From NCBI GenBank assembly GCA_011523385.1, contig WTGX01000033.1:1-64000 (forward strand): 64,000 nt of DNA, in the 5' to 3' direction. The notes under the pieces were generated by a model. The model had not been told where the DNA came from. It saw nothing but the letters and a program-made list of their open reading frames with translations, and made no database searches. Of the stretch, positions 5,720 through 48,620 are shown piece by piece; the first letter of the stretch is position 1, and every line of letters starts with the position of its first letter. The position numbers and the translations under genes were made by a program. Origin of the DNA: Nitrospira sp. GTDB lineage: Bacteria; Nitrospirota; Nitrospiria; Nitrospirales; UBA8639.

Positions 5720-6913
5720 TTATCTGTCCGGAACCGGCTCGGCAAACAACGCCACACTCGCGGTATATCCGTGAATGAAGTTTTTCCCGCCTACCGGCCC
5801 GATCTCGCCGGCGGCAAAAAACCCCGCAACCGGAATCCCGTCGGCCCGTCGCTGGAGGGCCGCAATATCATGGTTGGGTTCGGCGAAAAATCGCCGGCCC
5901 CGGCCGTTGCAACTGAACAACAAGGCCCCCTTGAAAGGAGATTTCGGGAAGTCCAGGCGATCCTGCGCCAGCAATAAATTGAAATCTTCACTGGCGGCGG
6001 CCGGGTCCCTCACGTGAAATTGAATCGTCTGCCCTTCCTTCACGATGTCGGAAATCGCCACGCCCCCGGAGCGTTGGTCCGCCCCCAACAATCCACGAAT
6101 GAGAAAATCTCCCCGGCCAAATTCCTCGCGTTGCTCATCAAACGCCACGCCGACCTGCACGGCCATGGCAACCTGTTTCCCCCGTTCCGGTCCCAAGCGT
6201 TCGAGTGTCTCCTGGAGCCGTTCGAGAGTCGGCACGCCGCCCAACTCATACATGATATTTCGTTCAGCCTTGGTCACCACGTAACGTTCCCCGATGGGTT
6301 GGCAACCCTGGGATACCAGGGTCCGAATCCACACAGGTCCCCACAGGGCCACTCCGACGAGGCCTTCCTGCACGATCCCGCCGTTGAACACCAATCGATT
6401 TTCACCCAGGTCCGTGCCCCCGCTGGCAACGCCCCCGATCGCGGGCGCACCCGGGCAGCGTGCCTCCATGGTTTCAAACACGTCTTCTATCGGCGTGGAA
6501 AAGGGATCGGCAAACACCAGGAACGTGGGCCGCTCAGACAGTGATTCCAATTCCTGAGGCCACCCCTCAAAGGTATAAGAGGATTGGGATTCCTTTTCGT
6601 GGAACGTCAAATGAAAGGGGACGATCCGCACTTCAGGCAGTTGAGCCGCCCACAAGGTCACGACCGATGTATTCTCGTATTCCTCGGCTGGTCCGATCAC
6701 GCCGTCGCCCATACAGCCCACCATCACTCGTGGGGCCAATTGCCGGTGGAGTGTCTCGACCAATTCACGTGCGGTCTTAGCATAATGCGGTGAGAAAAAC
6801 AGACAGACCAGATCAGGGGAGGTCGGGCCGAACGCCTCACGGACGGAGGCGATTAACGCCTGCGCCGCCTGCTCCGCGCCCGACTCACGCGCTATGGCTA
6901 CGTGGAATTGCAT
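5720..6913 (-). CDS. FIST-domain protein
   Basis: A 397-residue protein with the FIST_N/FIST_C layout. FIST_N covers about residues 30-220, with VMVGCMGDGVIGPAEEYEN and PAIGGVASGGTD. FIST_C covers about 225-375, ending GALLFSCNGRG, then PVAGFFAAGEIGPVGG and an HGYTASVALF tail. FIST domains are predicted small-ligand sensors, often linked to signal transduction and thought to bind amino acids or similar compounds; that is family knowledge. No transmembrane segment or output domain is visible, so this copy is a stand-alone cytosolic protein. Its length and ends look complete. The neighbours give no hint of the ligand. Confidence 0.85.
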   Translation of the reverse strand: MQFHVAIARESGAEQAAQALIASVREAFGPTSPDLVCLFFSPHYAKTARELVETLHRQLAPRVMVGCMGDGVIGPAEEYENTSVVTLWAAQLPEVRIVPFHLTFHEKESQSSYTFEGWPQELESLSERPTFLVFADPFSTPIEDVFETMEARCPGAPAIGGVASGGTDLGENRLVFNGGIVQEGLVGVALWGPVWIRTLVSQGCQPIGERYVVTKAERNIMYELGGVPTLERLQETLERLGPERGKQVAMAVQVGVAFDEQREEFGRGDFLIRGLLGADQRSGGVAISDIVKEGQTIQFHVRDPAAASEDFNLLLAQDRLDFPKSPFKGALLFSCNGRGRRFFAEPNHDIAALQRRADGIPVAGFFAAGEIGPVGGKNFIHGYTASVALFAEPVPDR

Positions 6914-7005
6914 GGGGTTCCCAAAAGTCTAACAGCGGGTCCGCACGATTGTCCACCGGAAACACCCTGATAGATGGAAACAACGGCCGTTGTTTCCTCC
7001 ATCTC

Positions 7006-7230
7006 ATGATCCGCTACCTCGCCGAGCGCCTGGACTTGGAAATCATGCAGAAACGGGCATCCGATCTGCTTTCCATGTGGGTCGGGGGCACGGAAAAGAA
7101 CATTGCCGGAGCCTTTGCCGAGGCACACAGCCAGGAGGCTTTTCTCGTGTTTGACGAAGCCGATTCGTTGCTCGCCGACCGGCGTATGGCTCAGAGGGGC
7201 TGGGAGATCAGTCAGGTCAAAGTGTCATAG
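7006..7230 (+). pseudogene. Fragment of an AAA+ ATPase
   Basis: The frame from about 7012 reads YLAERLDLEIMQKRASDLLS, then MWVGGTEKNIAGAFAEA, FLVFDEADSLLADRR and QRGWEISQV before a stop at 7228-7230. This is the stretch from just after the Walker A helix through Walker B (FLVFDEAD) of an AAA+ ATPase. The Walker A loop expected just upstream is absent (the preceding bases read NNGRCFLHLM), as are sensor 1, the arginine finger and everything C-terminal. About 70 of several hundred residues survive, so this is a gene remnant. Residues 6790-7005 of the same open frame overlap the start of the FIST gene on the other strand and are not coding. Confidence 0.75.
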
Positions 7231-7286
7231 TGAATGGACGTAGTCAAGGCATTGCATTTGCTCATGGCGCGGACTAGAATCATGGC

Positions 7287-7583
7287 ATGAGTGAAGCGAT
7301 CGCCTTTGATACTCATCGATTTGTCAAAAACCTGACCGAAAGCGGCTTTACGGAACAACAGGCCGAGGCCCTTGCGAAGGAGCAGGTCCAACTGCTCAAC
7401 AGCAACCTGGCCACCAAGGTCGATCTGCAAACAGTCAAGGCCGACCTGGAGGCCAAAATTGAGACGGTCAAGGCTGGCCTGGAGGCCAAAATCGAAGCCT
7501 CTAAGGTCGACCTGCTGAAATGGATGGTGACGGCGATGGTTGCCCAAGGCACGCTGATCGTTGCGCTCGTCAAACTGCTCTAA
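7287..7583 (+). CDS. Small coiled-coil, C-terminal membrane-anchored protein (DUF1640-like)
   Basis: A 98-residue protein. It opens with FDTHRFVKNLTESGFTEQQA, resembling the DUF1640/CCDC90 family, which couples a short helical head to a coiled coil and one C-terminal membrane helix. Residues 45-78 repeat an LEAKIETVKAGLEAKIEASK heptad pattern, and residues 80-98 (MVTAMVAQGTLIVALVKLL) form the membrane segment. The function of bacterial members is unknown. A protein of similar layout is encoded at 51676-51957. The ATG at 7287 is preceded by only a weak purine stretch. Confidence 0.7.
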   Translation: MSEAIAFDTHRFVKNLTESGFTEQQAEALAKEQVQLLNSNLATKVDLQTVKADLEAKIETVKAGLEAKIEASKVDLLKWMVTAMVAQGTLIVALVKLL

Positions 7584-7689
7584 GGTGTCGTTCGTTTAAA
7601 GGCACACCTTCATTCATACGTCTCCGTCAGATCCGGTCGTGTTTACTCAAACCGGACTTGGCACCGCATCTCAACACCTTTGTCCATCC

Positions 7690-7812
7690 TTGAAGTTTGG
7701 CATCATTTTTTACTTTTTTACACTTCTTTAACTTTTTTATTTTTTTAAAGTTTGCGATAAATTGTACAATATTTAAACTTTGTAAAGTTTTTTACATTTT
7801 GTAATGTTTAAA
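7690..7812. other. Very AT-rich intergenic tract with nested small palindromes
   Basis: This tract is almost pure A/T in a GC-rich neighbourhood. It contains ATTGTACAAT (7761-7770), AAACTTTGTAAAGTTT (7775-7790) and ACATTTTGTAATGT (7794-7807), plus an AAAGTTT at 7747 that can pair with AAACTTT at 7775. No gene is visible. It sits between the DUF1640-like gene and a repeat cluster. Confidence 0.6.
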
Positions 7813-7879
7813 CAACGAGCGCCTATCAGAAGCAGATTCCTCGCTTCGCTCGGAATGACATATTCGTTGTCGGGTTACG

Positions 7880-43516: not shown

Positions 43517-45085
43517 ATGACGGATCAACCCATCTTGGAGTTGAGCAGTTTCGACGCCGCGATTTTCGACCTTGACGGGGTCATCACCAGGACCGCGTCG
43601 GTTCATGCGGCCGCGTGGAAACACCTGTTTGATGAGTATCTCCGGACGCAAACCGGGGAGCCGTTTCACGCCTTCGACCCCGTCAATGATTATTGCGCCT
43701 ACGTGGACGGCAAACCCAGGTACGACGGCGTGACCGGTTTTCTGGCCTCCCGCGGCATCACGCTGCCCCATGGCGACCCCTCGGACCCGCCGGAGCAGGA
43801 GACCATTTGCGGGCTGGGAAATCGCAAGAACGTCCAGTTCCTGAAAGCCCTGCACGAGAACGGAGTGGAGGTCTTTCCCTCGACTGTTGCGCTCATGCGA
43901 CTGCTCAAGTCACTGGGCAAAAAAACCGCCGTGGTCACGGCCAGCGAAAACGGCCGAGTCATCGTGCAAGCCGCGGGGGTGACGGACCTGTTCGAGGTGA
44001 TGGTGGATGGCCGCGATGCCCGCGCCTTGGGCCTGCGCGGGAAACCGCACCCCGACACCTTCTTGAGAGCCGCCGAATGTTTGGAGGTGCTGCCTCAACG
44101 AGCCGTGGTGTGTGAAGACGCGTTGGCCGGGGTGGAAGCCGGCCGGGTCGGATGTTTCGGCCTGGTCGTGGGCCTTGATCGCGTCGGCCAGGCCGAAGCC
44201 CTGCACGCCCACGGCGGCGACGTGGTCGTCCCGGATTTGGAAGAACTCGTCGTCCAAGACGAAGCCGGAATCACGTGGCGCAGCGCCACGGCCCTGCCGT
44301 CCGCGCTCGATCGATTCGACGACGTGCTGGCACGGATGGGTCCACAACCTGTGGTGGTGTTTCTCGATTACGACGGCACCCTGACGCCGATTGTGGACCG
44401 TCCCGACCTGGCCGTGTTGGCGCAGGACGTGCGGGACGTGCTTGACGCGTTGAGTCATCAATGTCCGGTCGGAATCATCAGCGGCCGGGACCGCAAGGAC
44501 GTCACGGATCTCGTCAACCTGAACTCGCTGATCTACGCCGGCAGCCATGGGTTTGACATTGCCGGGCCGGAACACTTCGCCCTGTCCCATGAAGTCGGAA
44601 CGCAGTTTTCCAAGGCCCTCGATCACGCGGAGGCCATGCTGCGGCCTCTCCTCGAACCCGTTGCCGGCACCCTGATCGAGCGAAAAAAATTCTCCATCGC
44701 CGTGCACTATCGCCTGGTCGATCCCGGTGAGGTCTCCAGGGTCGAAGAGGCCGTCACCCGGGCCATGGCCGAATCTCCCGATCTCCGGCGCTCGGCAGGC
44801 AAGATGGTCTTTGAAATGCAACCGCAACTCGACTGGGACAAAGGGAAAGCCCTGTTGTGGTTGCTGGAGGGTCTGAAATGGAAGGAGTGCCAATACCAGC
44901 CCATGTATCTCGGCGACGACCTGACGGACGAACACGCGTTTCGTGAGTTGGTGGAGCGTGGCGTGGGGATCGTGGTGGAACACGGCTCGCGCTTTTCGTC
45001 TGCTTCTTTTTCATTACAAGACCCCCGCGAGGTGAAAGAATTTCTCATGCGATTGAGTCGTCACCTGGAAAGCCGCACGCCATGA
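43517..45085 (+). CDS. Fusion of beta-phosphoglucomutase-type HAD and trehalose-6-phosphate phosphatase
   Basis: A 522-residue protein with two HAD phosphatase domains in series. Residues 10-245 resemble beta-phosphoglucomutase: nucleophile DLDGVITRTASVHAAAW, cap with DYCAYVDGKPRYDGVTGFL, then VVTASENGR and VCEDALAGVEAGRVGCFG. Residues 275-515 resemble OtsB: FLDYDGTLTPIVDRP, VGIISGRDRKDVTDLV, YAGSHGFDIAGP and YLGDDLTDEHAFREL. The first would interconvert beta-glucose 1-phosphate and glucose 6-phosphate; the second would make trehalose from trehalose 6-phosphate. The next gene (ATGA overlap) is a GH65 phosphorylase that releases beta-glucose 1-phosphate. No otsA is in the window. The roles are inferred from family motifs. 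Confidence 0.9.
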   Translation: MTDQPILELSSFDAAIFDLDGVITRTASVHAAAWKHLFDEYLRTQTGEPFHAFDPVNDYCAYVDGKPRYDGVTGFLASRGITLPHGDPSDPPEQETICGLGNRKNVQFLKALHENGVEVFPSTVALMRLLKSLGKKTAVVTASENGRVIVQAAGVTDLFEVMVDGRDARALGLRGKPHPDTFLRAAECLEVLPQRAVVCEDALAGVEAGRVGCFGLVVGLDRVGQAEALHAHGGDVVVPDLEELVVQDEAGITWRSATALPSALDRFDDVLARMGPQPVVVFLDYDGTLTPIVDRPDLAVLAQDVRDVLDALSHQCPVGIISGRDRKDVTDLVNLNSLIYAGSHGFDIAGPEHFALSHEVGTQFSKALDHAEAMLRPLLEPVAGTLIERKKFSIAVHYRLVDPGEVSRVEEAVTRAMAESPDLRRSAGKMVFEMQPQLDWDKGKALLWLLEGLKWKECQYQPMYLGDDLTDEHAFRELVERGVGIVVEHGSRFSSASFSLQDPREVKEFLMRLSRHLESRTP

Positions 45086-47472
45086 GCGACTGGGCATTGA
45101 TCTACGACGGATTCGATCCCGCGAAGGAACGCCTGCGCGAAGCCCTCTGTACGCTGGGGAACGGTTACTTTGCCACCCGCGGAGCGGCTCCCGAAGCCCA
45201 CGCCGATGCCACGCATTACCCGGGGACATACCTGGCCGGCGGATACAACCGGTTGCAGACCGGGATCGAAGGCCGGACGATCGAGAACGAAGATCTCGTG
45301 AACCTGCCGAATTGGTTGGTCCTCACCTTTCGCCATCCCGGCGAGGAGTGGTTCAACATTCAGGCCGTTGATCTGCTCTCGTACCAACAGACCTTGGACC
45401 TGAAGGCCGGAGTCCTGCATCGTTCGTATCAATTTCAGGACCGCGAAGGGCGAAAGACCACGGTGAACAGCCGCCGGTTCGTCCATTTGGGTGATCCGCA
45501 TCTCGCCGGGTTGGAGATCGTAATCACCCCTGACAATTGGTCCGGCCCATTGGAGATCCATACCGGCCTCGACGGCCGGGTTCGCAACACCGGCGTGCCG
45601 CGCTACGCGGCTCTGAACAACCGCCACTTATCTCCCCTCGAAGCCTCCGCGTTCAGCCACGACGGGATCTTTCTGTGTACGGAGACGACTCAATCGAAAG
45701 TCCGCATCGCCCAAGCCGCGCGCACTGGGTGCTTTCCGGATACGGCCTGGACGGACCTGCCCAGGACCCCGGTGCAGGAACGGGACTACATTGGCCAGGA
45801 ATGTACGATTCCCATGACGGAAGGCCAGCCCCTGACCATTGAAAAAATCGCGTCGTTGTACACCTCACGCGATCACGGTATATCCGAATGCGGAGAAGAG
45901 GCCCGCGATGCCCTCGTGCATGCCGGCAGGTTCGAGGATTTGCTCCGCTCGCATACTCAACGCTGGAATCAGGTCTGGCAGCAGTGTGACTTGGGCCTGC
46001 AAGGTGACGAAGACTCCCAGCTCACGCTACGGTTGCACCTCTTTCACCTGTTGCAAACGGTCTCGTCGCATACGGTCGAATTGGACGCGGGCGTCCCTGC
46101 GCGGGGGTGGCACGGCGAGGCGTATCGTGGACACATTTTCTGGGACGAACTGTATATTTTCCCGGTGTTGAACCTGCGATTCCCTGCCCTGACGAAGGCG
46201 CTGTTGTTGTACCGGCATCGACGCCTCGAACAGGCCAGACGAAATGCGGCCCAGACCGGATTCAGCGGGGCCATGTATCCCTGGCAAAGCGGCAGCAACG
46301 GCCGCGAAGAAAGCCAAGTCCTGCACCTGAACCCCAAATCCGGCCGATGGATCCCGGACCTGAGCACGCTTCAACGCCATGTGAACGCGGCCATTGCCTA
46401 TAATATCTGGGAGTACGTCGAAGCCACCGACGACTGGGAGTTTCTTTCCACACAGGGCGCGGAAATGTTCCTGGAGATCGCCAGGTTTTGGGTCAGCGCC
46501 ACATCATATAATCCCGACAAGGAACGCTATGAGATTTTACGGGTGATGGGACCCGATGAATACCACGATCAGTATCCGGATTCCGAAACCCCCGGGTTGA
46601 ACAACAACGCCTATACCAACGTCATGGTCGTATGGATTCTATGCCGGGCCTTGGAGCTCCTGGACCGGCTCGCGGCGTCAACCCGTACCGAAGTTCGGGA
46701 CCTCCTGCACGTCAGCCCCACCGAGGTCGCCTTGTGGGAAGACATCAGCCGGAAGATGTTCGTGCCGTTTCACGACGAGGGGATCATCAGTCAATTCGAA
46801 GGGTATGAGGCATTGGCGGAATTTGAGTGGGGACGCTACCGGCAGAAATACGGGGACATCCACCGGCTGGACCGAATCCTGGAAGCCGAAGGGGACTCCA
46901 CGAACCGGTACAAACTCTCCAAACAGGCCGACGTGCTGATGCTCTTTTACCTGTTTTCGCCGGAGGAGCTGCGTGACCTGTTCGAGCGGCTGGGCTATGC
47001 CTTCCGGACGGACACCATGTCACGGAACGTTGAGTATTACTCGAAACGGACGGCCCACGGGTCCTCCCTCAGCCGGGTGGTGCATGCCTGGGTTATGACG
47101 AGATCCGACCCGGAACTGGCCTGGGAACTGTTCAAGGATGCGTTGGGCGTGGACGTGTCTGATCTGCAAGCCGGCACCACCGCGGAAGGCATCCACACGG
47201 GAGCCATGGCCGGGACAGTGGATCTGATGCAGCGCGCCTATACGGGATGGGAAAGCAGGGACGGCACGCTGTGTTTCAATCCCTGCCTTCCACCGAAAGT
47301 CGAAGCGCTTCATCTCCGGGTGAGGTATCGCGGGCACTCCCTGGATGTGACCGTGACCCAGGACACCTTTCAGCTAACCTCACGCCCGGGTCTTACGGCC
47401 CCGATTCAGGTGTCCGTCAAGGGCCAAGCCCACACCCTCGCACCCGGGCACACCATCAAGACGAACCTGTAA
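45082..47472 (+). CDS. Glycoside hydrolase family 65 phosphorylase (trehalose/kojibiose/maltose type)
   Basis: A 796-residue GH65 enzyme. The N-terminal beta-sandwich includes TLGNGYFATRGAAPE and YPGTYLAGGYNRL. The (alpha/alpha)6 barrel carries GWHGEAYRGHIFWDELYIFP and the general-acid Glu in RVMGPDEYHDQYPDSE. NNNAYTNVMVVWIL and YKLSKQADVLMLFYLFSPEE follow, with HGSSLSRVVHAWVMTRSDPE and AGTTAEGIHTGAMAGTVDL near the C-terminus. Phosphorylases of this family split alpha-glucosides with phosphate to beta-glucose 1-phosphate. The upstream fused beta-PGM/OtsB suggests trehalose as substrate. Start overlaps the previous stop (ATGA). Specificity is not proven by sequence. Confidence 0.93.
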   Translation: MSDWALIYDGFDPAKERLREALCTLGNGYFATRGAAPEAHADATHYPGTYLAGGYNRLQTGIEGRTIENEDLVNLPNWLVLTFRHPGEEWFNIQAVDLLSYQQTLDLKAGVLHRSYQFQDREGRKTTVNSRRFVHLGDPHLAGLEIVITPDNWSGPLEIHTGLDGRVRNTGVPRYAALNNRHLSPLEASAFSHDGIFLCTETTQSKVRIAQAARTGCFPDTAWTDLPRTPVQERDYIGQECTIPMTEGQPLTIEKIASLYTSRDHGISECGEEARDALVHAGRFEDLLRSHTQRWNQVWQQCDLGLQGDEDSQLTLRLHLFHLLQTVSSHTVELDAGVPARGWHGEAYRGHIFWDELYIFPVLNLRFPALTKALLLYRHRRLEQARRNAAQTGFSGAMYPWQSGSNGREESQVLHLNPKSGRWIPDLSTLQRHVNAAIAYNIWEYVEATDDWEFLSTQGAEMFLEIARFWVSATSYNPDKERYEILRVMGPDEYHDQYPDSETPGLNNNAYTNVMVVWILCRALELLDRLAASTRTEVRDLLHVSPTEVALWEDISRKMFVPFHDEGIISQFEGYEALAEFEWGRYRQKYGDIHRLDRILEAEGDSTNRYKLSKQADVLMLFYLFSPEELRDLFERLGYAFRTDTMSRNVEYYSKRTAHGSSLSRVVHAWVMTRSDPELAWELFKDALGVDVSDLQAGTTAEGIHTGAMAGTVDLMQRAYTGWESRDGTLCFNPCLPPKVEALHLRVRYRGHSLDVTVTQDTFQLTSRPGLTAPIQVSVKGQAHTLAPGHTIKTNL

Positions 47473-47522: not shown

Positions 47523-48317
47523 TCACAATCGACTCAATTCGTGTTGCGCCACGGCCGAGAAAACCGCCTTCACCAACCTATCCTTGCCGATTGGTTTCAT
47601 GAGGAAATCCTTCACCCCGTCACGAATCATCCCCGCCAACTTTTCGGAGCGAAGCACGTAGGATTGCATGTCCCGTTCCCGTTGAATCAGCATCCACAAG
47701 AGTTTGGAGGCCGCTCCGCCGAGCACTTCGACCAGGTCATGCTTGTTCTCGACGATGACCGCCTCCATGGCCGGATCACCGGTGACGTCGATCAGCAGAT
47801 CCACGTGTTCGTCGCGGATCAGGTTCATCGGCTCAGGCACCACCGGGATTTCAAATTCCTGCGCGAACCGTAAGCCGGTGGCCTCGGGATCTTTGTCCGT
47901 GATGCCCACCACCTGCGCGTCCGGGAGATGAAGGAACACGTCGAGCAACGCCCGCCCGCCTTTCCCCGCCCCTACGATGCCGATCCGAATGGCCGAAGAA
48001 CCGGAAACCTCTCCTTCGAGCATGCCGGTCAAGGCGATCAAAGGAATGTGCGGGAATTGGGATTTAAAATAATTCAGGGAACCGACACCCAACTTCTTGT
48101 CGATATCCGTAATCACCACGTCAAGCAACAACGGATTTTCGCCTTCCTTGACCACGTCGATGGCCCGGTCTTCCGTGTCGGCCTCCAACACGTCGAATCC
48201 CGCGGTCTCCAGGGTGGCACGCATCTCTGCGCAAATACCGGGATCATCCTCGATCAACAACACGCGCCCGTTTCCCGGTTTGGAGCCAAACATTGCAGCA
48301 GTTTTTGGTTCAGTCAT
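47523..48317 (-). CDS. Receiver domain apparently interrupted by an NAD-binding Rossmann domain
   Basis: A 264-residue protein. Residues 18-99 are the first four strands of a response-regulator receiver: acid pair in LLIEDD (24-25), phosphoacceptor Asp71 in VVITDID, Thr97 in LIALTGM. At about residue 105 a Rossmann domain begins (IRIGIVGAGKGGRALLDVF, GxGxxG at 116-121) with GITDKDP and DLLIDVTGDPAM. It resembles Gfo/Idh or DapB N-termini and runs to about 215. Then the chain returns to receiver-like sequence: GVKDFLMKPIGKDRLVKAV, with the conserved Lys at 241 and helix 5. No output domain is visible. ATG 48317 has AAGGAGG at good spacing. The function is unknown; NAD- or redox-linked signalling is my inference. 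Confidence 0.75.
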   Translation of the reverse strand: MTEPKTAAMFGSKPGNGRVLLIEDDPGICAEMRATLETAGFDVLEADTEDRAIDVVKEGENPLLLDVVITDIDKKLGVGSLNYFKSQFPHIPLIALTGMLEGEVSGSSAIRIGIVGAGKGGRALLDVFLHLPDAQVVGITDKDPEATGLRFAQEFEIPVVPEPMNLIRDEHVDLLIDVTGDPAMEAVIVENKHDLVEVLGGAASKLLWMLIQRERDMQSYVLRSEKLAGMIRDGVKDFLMKPIGKDRLVKAVFSAVAQHELSRL

Positions 48318-48469: not shown

Positions 48470-48585
48470 ACTAAAAAAGCCCTTTGGATCGTTCACGGTC
48501 CAAAGGGCTTTGTCTCGATCTTGCCTGCCACAGGCTGTCCAGGAAGCTACCCCATCACCTGCCTCTTTTTTAAAAAGTTTCTCTT
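48470..48585 (-). ncRNA. Possible small RNA or attenuated leader upstream of the receiver gene
   Basis: The promoter at 48592-48620 and the intrinsic terminator at 48476-48511, both on the minus strand, bracket about 115 nt with no useful reading frame. The segment contains a short hairpin-prone part (CCTGGACAGCCTGTGGCAGG). It matches no RNA family I know. Read-through would continue about 160 nt to the receiver gene. Confidence 0.4.
48476..48511 (-). terminator. Intrinsic terminator in the leader of the receiver gene
   Basis: AAAGCCCTTTGGA (48476-48488) pairs with TCCAAAGGGCTTT (48499-48511), a 13-bp perfect stem with a 10-base loop. On the minus strand it is followed by TTTT, so it terminates leftward transcription 160 bp before the receiver gene. 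No gene ends upstream of it on that strand. Confidence 0.85.
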
Positions 48586-48591
48586 AATAAA

Positions 48592-48620
48592 ATGATAAGC
48601 CTGTTTCCCCGAACAGTCAA
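48592..48620 (-). promoter_or_regulatory. Sigma-70-type promoter, leftward
   Basis: On the minus strand TTGACT (48620-48615), a 17-base spacer and TATCAT (48597-48592) make a near-consensus promoter. Transcription would start near 48585, directly upstream of the terminator at 48476-48511. Confidence 0.6.

Follow-up and report, generated by a model that had tools for sequence, protein, structure and literature searches.

Does the minus-strand gene at positions 47523-48317 encode a receiver domain that is broken in two by a Rossmann domain, and, if so, how might such a protein have arisen and what might it do? The gene lies in a 64,000-nucleotide stretch of Nitrospira DNA, hereafter called the window, and its open reading frame specifies 264 amino acids. 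A first-pass annotation, made from the sequence alone, had proposed that receiver sequence begins, gives way to a dinucleotide-binding block and resumes only near the C-terminus.

Domain content of the window protein

The reading frame, its coordinates and both sequence blocks are as that annotation described them. Separate Pfam profiles for Response_reg (residues 19-114) and GFO_IDH_MocA (PF01408; residues 110-176, 33.7 bits against a cut-off of 24) each match the protein. Sequence matches in the PDB include receivers over about the first 100 residues, inositol dehydrogenases over residues 105-190, with 4mie matching the Rossmann block at an E value of 1.1e-5, and the LuxO receiver over residues 228-253. 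Pfam reveals no output domain, no HATPase_c domain and no GFO/IDH/MocA C-terminal catalytic domain in the 264-residue protein. The features and the evidence for each are as follows.

47523..48317, minus strand: whole gene, nested receiver/Rossmann protein of 264 aa (full-length relatives in 17 genomes)
48024..48269, minus strand: receiver part 1, residues 17-98, β1-α1-β2-α2-β3-α3-β4 (Pfam Response_reg, ~50% identity to standalone receivers, secondary structure elements of the model at 18-97)
48246..48251, minus strand: Glu23-Asp24, metal-binding acidic pair (alignment of 18 nested proteins)
48105..48107, minus strand: Asp71, phosphoacceptor (D in 17/18 nested copies)
48027..48029, minus strand: Thr97, conserved receiver Thr (18/18 nested copies)
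47994..48023, minus strand: linker, residues 99-108 (low pLDDT; dN/dS 0.69 for residues 99-109)
47718..47993, minus strand: inserted Rossmann domain, residues 109-200 (PF01408, 4mie match, identity to the kinase Rossmann domain)
47955..47972, minus strand: GAGKGG, putative dinucleotide-binding motif, residues 116-121 (GxGxxG in 18/18)
47895..47897, minus strand: Asp141, acid ending Rossmann strand 2 (18/18)
47631..47717, minus strand: signal helix, residues 201-229, apparently kinase-derived as far as EKLAGM and running into receiver helix 4 (kinase alignment); predicted by AlphaFold as helices 202-222 and 225-232
47526..47630, minus strand: receiver part 2, residues 230-264, end of α4, β5 and α5 (HMM test, model, dN/dS 0.077)
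47595..47597, minus strand: Lys241, conserved receiver Lys (17/17 readable copies)

Sequence tests of the split receiver

Compared with the receiver family PF00072, the domain is not contiguous but is interrupted at residues ~99-229. An HMM of 144 positions, built from 30 standalone receivers only, assigns 130.6 bits to the N- and C-terminal pieces of the window protein when they are joined, with all 144 positions covered, while the N-terminal piece alone receives 105.8 bits and the 35-residue C-terminal piece alone 24.7 bits. Control sequences in which the N-terminal piece is followed by shuffled C-terminal pieces score 106.6±1.4 bits (maximum 112.3, n=200), and those in which it is followed by pieces of the insertion score no higher than 109.3 bits. 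The authentic C-terminal piece gains 24 bits over the shuffled control, and the same behavior is seen in all 17 complete nested copies. When mapped onto standalone receivers, the N-terminal piece matches residues ~10-106 and the C-terminal piece residues ~114-149 of one protein, in sequence order, such that the two are separated by 7 residues there versus ~125 in the window protein. Moreover, MAFFT placed the gap at the same site unaided when the alignment included ordinary receivers that are unrelated (29% and 19% identity).

Predicted structure

AlphaFold modeling used an 11-row alignment in which three rows are ordinary receivers that bridge the insertion and thus bias the result towards a nested fold. 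The resulting model has a moderate pLDDT of 68.4, with low values at both junctions (residues 99-107 and 217-228), and a single-sequence model, with a pLDDT of 44, is uninformative. The first half of the receiver is predicted to comprise β1 (18-22), α1, β2, α2, β3 (67-71), α3 and β4 (93-97). Rossmann strands follow at 110-115, 134-140, 174-177 and 197-200, then a helix at 202-222, and the receiver is completed by α4 (225-232), β5 (235-240) and α5 (245-263). When the insertion is skipped, the predicted model contains a complete (βα)5 receiver fold.

Fifty solved receivers align to this model over 111-125 residues that span positions of about 12-264 (Z 17-19, rmsd 1.6-2.5), according to a second look with VIA-align. 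Foldseek alone placed multi-domain regulators such as PleD at the top with poor rmsd, and its ranking was not relied on. The first-pass annotation had named two outcomes that would speak against it, namely two complete sequential domains or a C-terminus lacking a receiver-like fold, and the model displays neither. Together, the sequence comparisons and the model indicate that a receiver broken after strand 4 by a Rossmann block and resumed near residue 230 is almost certainly the architecture of this protein. The insertion does fall between strands 4 and 5, as was first suggested, although its site can be narrowed to the interval between strand 4 and helix 4.

Distribution and selection

A survey of 236 genomes from 37 genera of the order uncovered 18 copies of the nested form in 17 genomes, representing eight genera and two families. 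In the window's genus 9 of 14 genomes are carriers, and the remainder are G019 (with two copies), G022, G025, G027, G038, G272, G333 and G362. The insertion site is identical in all copies, and their receiver parts form one clade with support of 98.5/100. The Rossmann tree leaves a single nested clade unsettled, but monophyly is not rejected (AU p 0.44). No nested relatives were found among viral contigs, which yielded one distant receiver.

Purifying selection acts on receiver part 1 (dN/dS 0.13), the Rossmann domain (0.16) and receiver part 2 (0.08), whereas the linker evolves rapidly (0.69); the value for the whole gene is 0.155. These data bear on the concern that the protein is an assembly chimera, a pseudogene or two complete sequential domains misread as nested. 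Pfam alone lends some color to this concern by drawing a receiver that overruns into the Rossmann domain. However, the C-terminal piece earns its 24 bits, the structural alignment crosses the insertion, and 17 independent genomes, several of them assembled in one to a few contigs (G012, G013 and G027), carry intact open reading frames under the constraint given above. An artefact is extremely improbable, and is refuted in practice because the nested form recurs in unrelated assemblies.

Some copies vary at their ends. In G272 (L063, 3100-3882), a run of N in the assembly begins just after EKVAA and leaves the C-terminal receiver part unreadable. In L057 (1247-2119) and L060 (6938-7810), a hydrophobic N-terminus that is probably membrane-anchoring replaces the AAMFG leader.

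Ancestry of the nested protein

Most related Nitrospirales carry two adjacent genes, one for a standalone receiver of ~144 aa and the other for a Rossmann-HisKA-HATPase kinase of ~345-390 aa. An example of this parental pair is found in L066.

6147-7289: kinase
7414-7845: standalone receiver

The standalone receivers are mostly 45-53% identical to residues 1-103 of the window protein. Residues 107-230 share about 45-50% identity with the N-terminal Rossmann domain of the kinases, which is followed there by HisKA and HATPase_c. Beyond the pair lie genes for a dCache-HAMP-PAS kinase and a Tll0287-like protein, and this four-gene cluster is conserved among Nitrospirales (L066 3087-7845, and also L069, L070, L055 and L068).

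The nested protein follows the receiver as far as LTG(M), passes through the linker, continues as a kinase-type Rossmann domain plus helix to EKLAGM, and then returns to the receiver end. Immediately after EKLAGM the kinase reads GTFASGIAHDINNP, where H is the phosphoacceptor, while the nested protein reads IRDGVKDFLMKP, matching the receiver sequence FLKxGIVDYLVKP. Likeness to the kinase thus stops ahead of the phosphoacceptor His, and neither this residue nor the ATPase domain is present. Approximately 7-10 receiver residues from the β4-α4 loop and early helix 4 have been replaced, and therefore helix 4 is probably composite, with its opening turns taken from the kinase signal helix and its final part from the receiver. 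The first-pass annotation had the Rossmann domain standing in place of helix 4; this helix is instead present, apparently rebuilt from the signal helix and the last turn of the receiver's own.

Very probably, judging from these alignments, the protein is a chimera of an ancestral two-gene module of receiver and Rossmann-HisKA-HATPase kinase. On this view the receiver would have taken up, between its strand 4 and its helix 4, the Rossmann sensor of the kinase together with the helix leading from it to the phosphorylatable His, and the kinase core was omitted. The nested gene and the parental pair are 4.3 kb apart in G038, a spacing consistent with an origin by local duplication and deletion.

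Two other origins were entertained and set aside. Some genomes have open frames of 540-570 aa that resemble receiver-Rossmann-kinase fusions, but this simple fused intermediate was abandoned because a stop codon separates the receiver and kinase frames in L067 and L068. The other candidate parent, a Rossmann-HisKA_3 kinase accompanied by a LuxR-type regulator (G000:C18), proved to be a more distant paralogue. This arrangement, in which a Rossmann-HisKA_3-HATPase kinase adjoins a LuxR-type response regulator (L065, 3397-5113), is a second Rossmann-sensing two-component system, and has relatives in many genomes of the order. Our search of the open-access literature found no description of a Rossmann-sensor histidine kinase.

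None of the 14 genomes in the window's genus contains the parental pair, whether the search starts from the kinase or from the receiver. With the kinase query, Rossmann matches are limited to the nested proteins and the distant HisKA_3 paralogue; with the receiver query, the nested protein ranks first and is followed only by relatives of ~37% identity. We take this genus to be the sponge-associated lineage IVb, whose genomes are mostly sponge-associated and smaller than those of free-living relatives (PMC12342949).

Genomic surroundings

Within the window no kinase is linked to the nested gene, and none that is cognate lies beside it. Its neighbors vary between genera and offer no functional clue. 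The genome as a whole yields about 17 matches to HATPase domains and about 15 to receivers.

Across the genus, the nested gene is syntenic with genes at 43517-47472 that are convergent to it, where a HAD/trehalose-phosphatase-like fusion overlaps a glycoside hydrolase family 65-like gene (both assigned by sequence appearance). Between the nested gene and polA is a stretch of ~120 bp (48476-48594, minus strand) that is strongly conserved in the genus. It ends in an intrinsic terminator with a perfect stem, AAAGCCCTTTGG...CCAAAGGGCTTT, on the strand of the nested gene, and this terminator is found in eight of the nine genus genomes that carry the gene. The stretch is a possible small RNA or attenuating leader; a search of it against Rfam returned nothing above threshold, the best match being sraL (E 0.71).

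Conserved residues of the receiver and Rossmann parts

All five catalytic positions of a receiver are occupied in the window protein. Alignment confirms the assignments originally made for Asp71, Thr97 and Lys241, but corrects the acidic pair from Asp24-Asp25 to Glu23-Asp24, as in PhoB. The five positions are kept in 15 other copies among the 18, counting that of G272, which is unreadable at the Lys. The pair is ED in 16 of the 18, EG in one and EE in one, with Glu23 invariant. L055 carries Asn in place of Asp71, and L056 carries Gly in place of Asp24. Pseudo-receivers are defined as lacking at least one of the five catalytic residues (PMC12632262), a description that does not apply to the window protein, the replacements being in L055 and L056.

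The β3-α3 loop of every nested protein (18/18) is two residues shorter than usual, with 7 residues from D to G versus 9 in all 30 standalone receivers. In the window protein it reads DIDKKLG, which has Gly at D+6 and no Pro, and so departs from the standard γ-turn, in which D+4 is Pro and D+8 is Gly. Changes in the γ-turn are typical of pseudo-receivers (PMC12632262). Because the loop is shortened in all members and one has an Asn phosphoacceptor, phosphorylation of Asp71 may be weak or lost.

Such changes invite the reading that the protein is a ligand-gated pseudo-receiver or decoy, unphosphorylated in practice, that would hold or free the kinases or receivers of related systems according to the ligand of its Rossmann domain. 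The shortened loop with its displaced Gly, the substitutions in L055 and L056, and the lack of an adjoining cognate kinase are in keeping with this reading. However, it sits poorly with the retention of all five catalytic positions in the window protein and 15 other copies, and with receiver parts that are among the most constrained segments, and we consider it rather unlikely.

Both the GxGxxG motif and D141 of the Rossmann domain are invariant (18/18), in line with the Rossmann domains of the GFO/IDH/MocA family, and the domain probably binds a dinucleotide. NAD(H) is a plausible ligand because this motif and the invariant strand-2 acid occur here without a catalytic domain.

Proposed function

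The best overall explanation, which we hold at even odds, is a ligand-gated single-domain receiver made as a nested chimera. The protein has no kinase core and no output domain, and therefore is unable to carry out His autophosphorylation, or DNA binding by any known domain. A dinucleotide, most likely NAD(H), would bind the Rossmann domain and move the signal helix, which in the kinase reaches the H-box and here would continue into receiver helix 4. A shift of this helix would alter the α4-β5-α5 face, through which receivers dimerize or bind partners. Output from receivers usually passes through the α4β5α5 surface, which c-di-GMP gates in the ShkA pseudo-receiver (PMC12632262). With the D, T, K and acidic pair retained, the receiver could be gated by metabolite and phosphorylation both, and might serve as a free-standing CheY-like modulator of kinases or partners elsewhere in the cell. 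Ligand gating itself is nearly an even prospect. More tentative is the full proposal of an allosteric receiver whose sensor was grafted into the β4-α4 loop and whose signal helix serves as helix 4, such that sensing and phosphorylation are merged and the kinase is bypassed, and which arose once by receiver-kinase fusion and replaced the pair in the symbiont genus.

Single-domain receivers commonly act as sinks or shuttles. The absence of an output domain would also fit a phosphate sink or CheY-like shuttle in which the Rossmann domain senses nothing and is simply a dimerization or scaffold insert. However, a mere scaffold would not need a GxGxxG motif and strand-2 Asp that are invariant in 18/18, nor a Rossmann dN/dS of 0.16, and this alternative appears improbable.

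Few bacterial domains are more abundant than the receiver, which is described as responsive to phosphodonors and metal but not to small molecules (PMC12632262). A conserved family with a sensor nested within the receiver, where the output face begins, would exemplify natural allosteric domain insertion in two-component signaling, and provides a test case for direct control of a receiver by a signal helix. It also shows one way for a kinase and its receiver partner to be reduced to a single protein, here in host-associated nitrite oxidizers with small genomes.

Comparison with known systems

The window protein shares with PF00072 receivers of the CheY/Spo0F type the fold over 122-125 aligned residues spanning 13-264, the acidic pair, Asp71, Thr97, Lys241 and the lack of an output domain, but differs in its ~125-residue interruption between β4 and α4 and its β3-α3 loop two residues shorter. 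Both halves of the Nitrospirales parental pair are ~45-52% identical to it, and the N-terminal AAMFG and the EKLAGM end are held in common; the pair, however, consists of two genes, with an intact kinase core that includes the His and an uninterrupted receiver.

Pseudo-receivers such as ShkA and CikA (PMC12632262) likewise have a modified γ-turn, and share the principle proposed here, control of a receiver fold by a ligand. Unlike them, the window protein keeps all five catalytic residues, and its putative ligand-binding part is a separate nested domain. With GFO/IDH/MocA oxidoreductases (PF01408), including inositol dehydrogenase, it shares GxGxxG, the strand-2 Asp and the N-terminal Rossmann half; since it is without their C-terminal catalytic domain, no dehydrogenase activity is expected. 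The Rex redox repressor also employs a Rossmann domain as an NAD(H) sensor, and gives a weak match (5zz5, E 0.069), but Rex binds DNA and we do not claim the window protein as a member.

Our limited search of the open-access literature found no description of a receiver interrupted by another domain, and receivers go unmentioned in the main text of a 2026 survey of domain insertions (PMC13114784). We regard the nested protein as a new architectural variant assembled from known domains.
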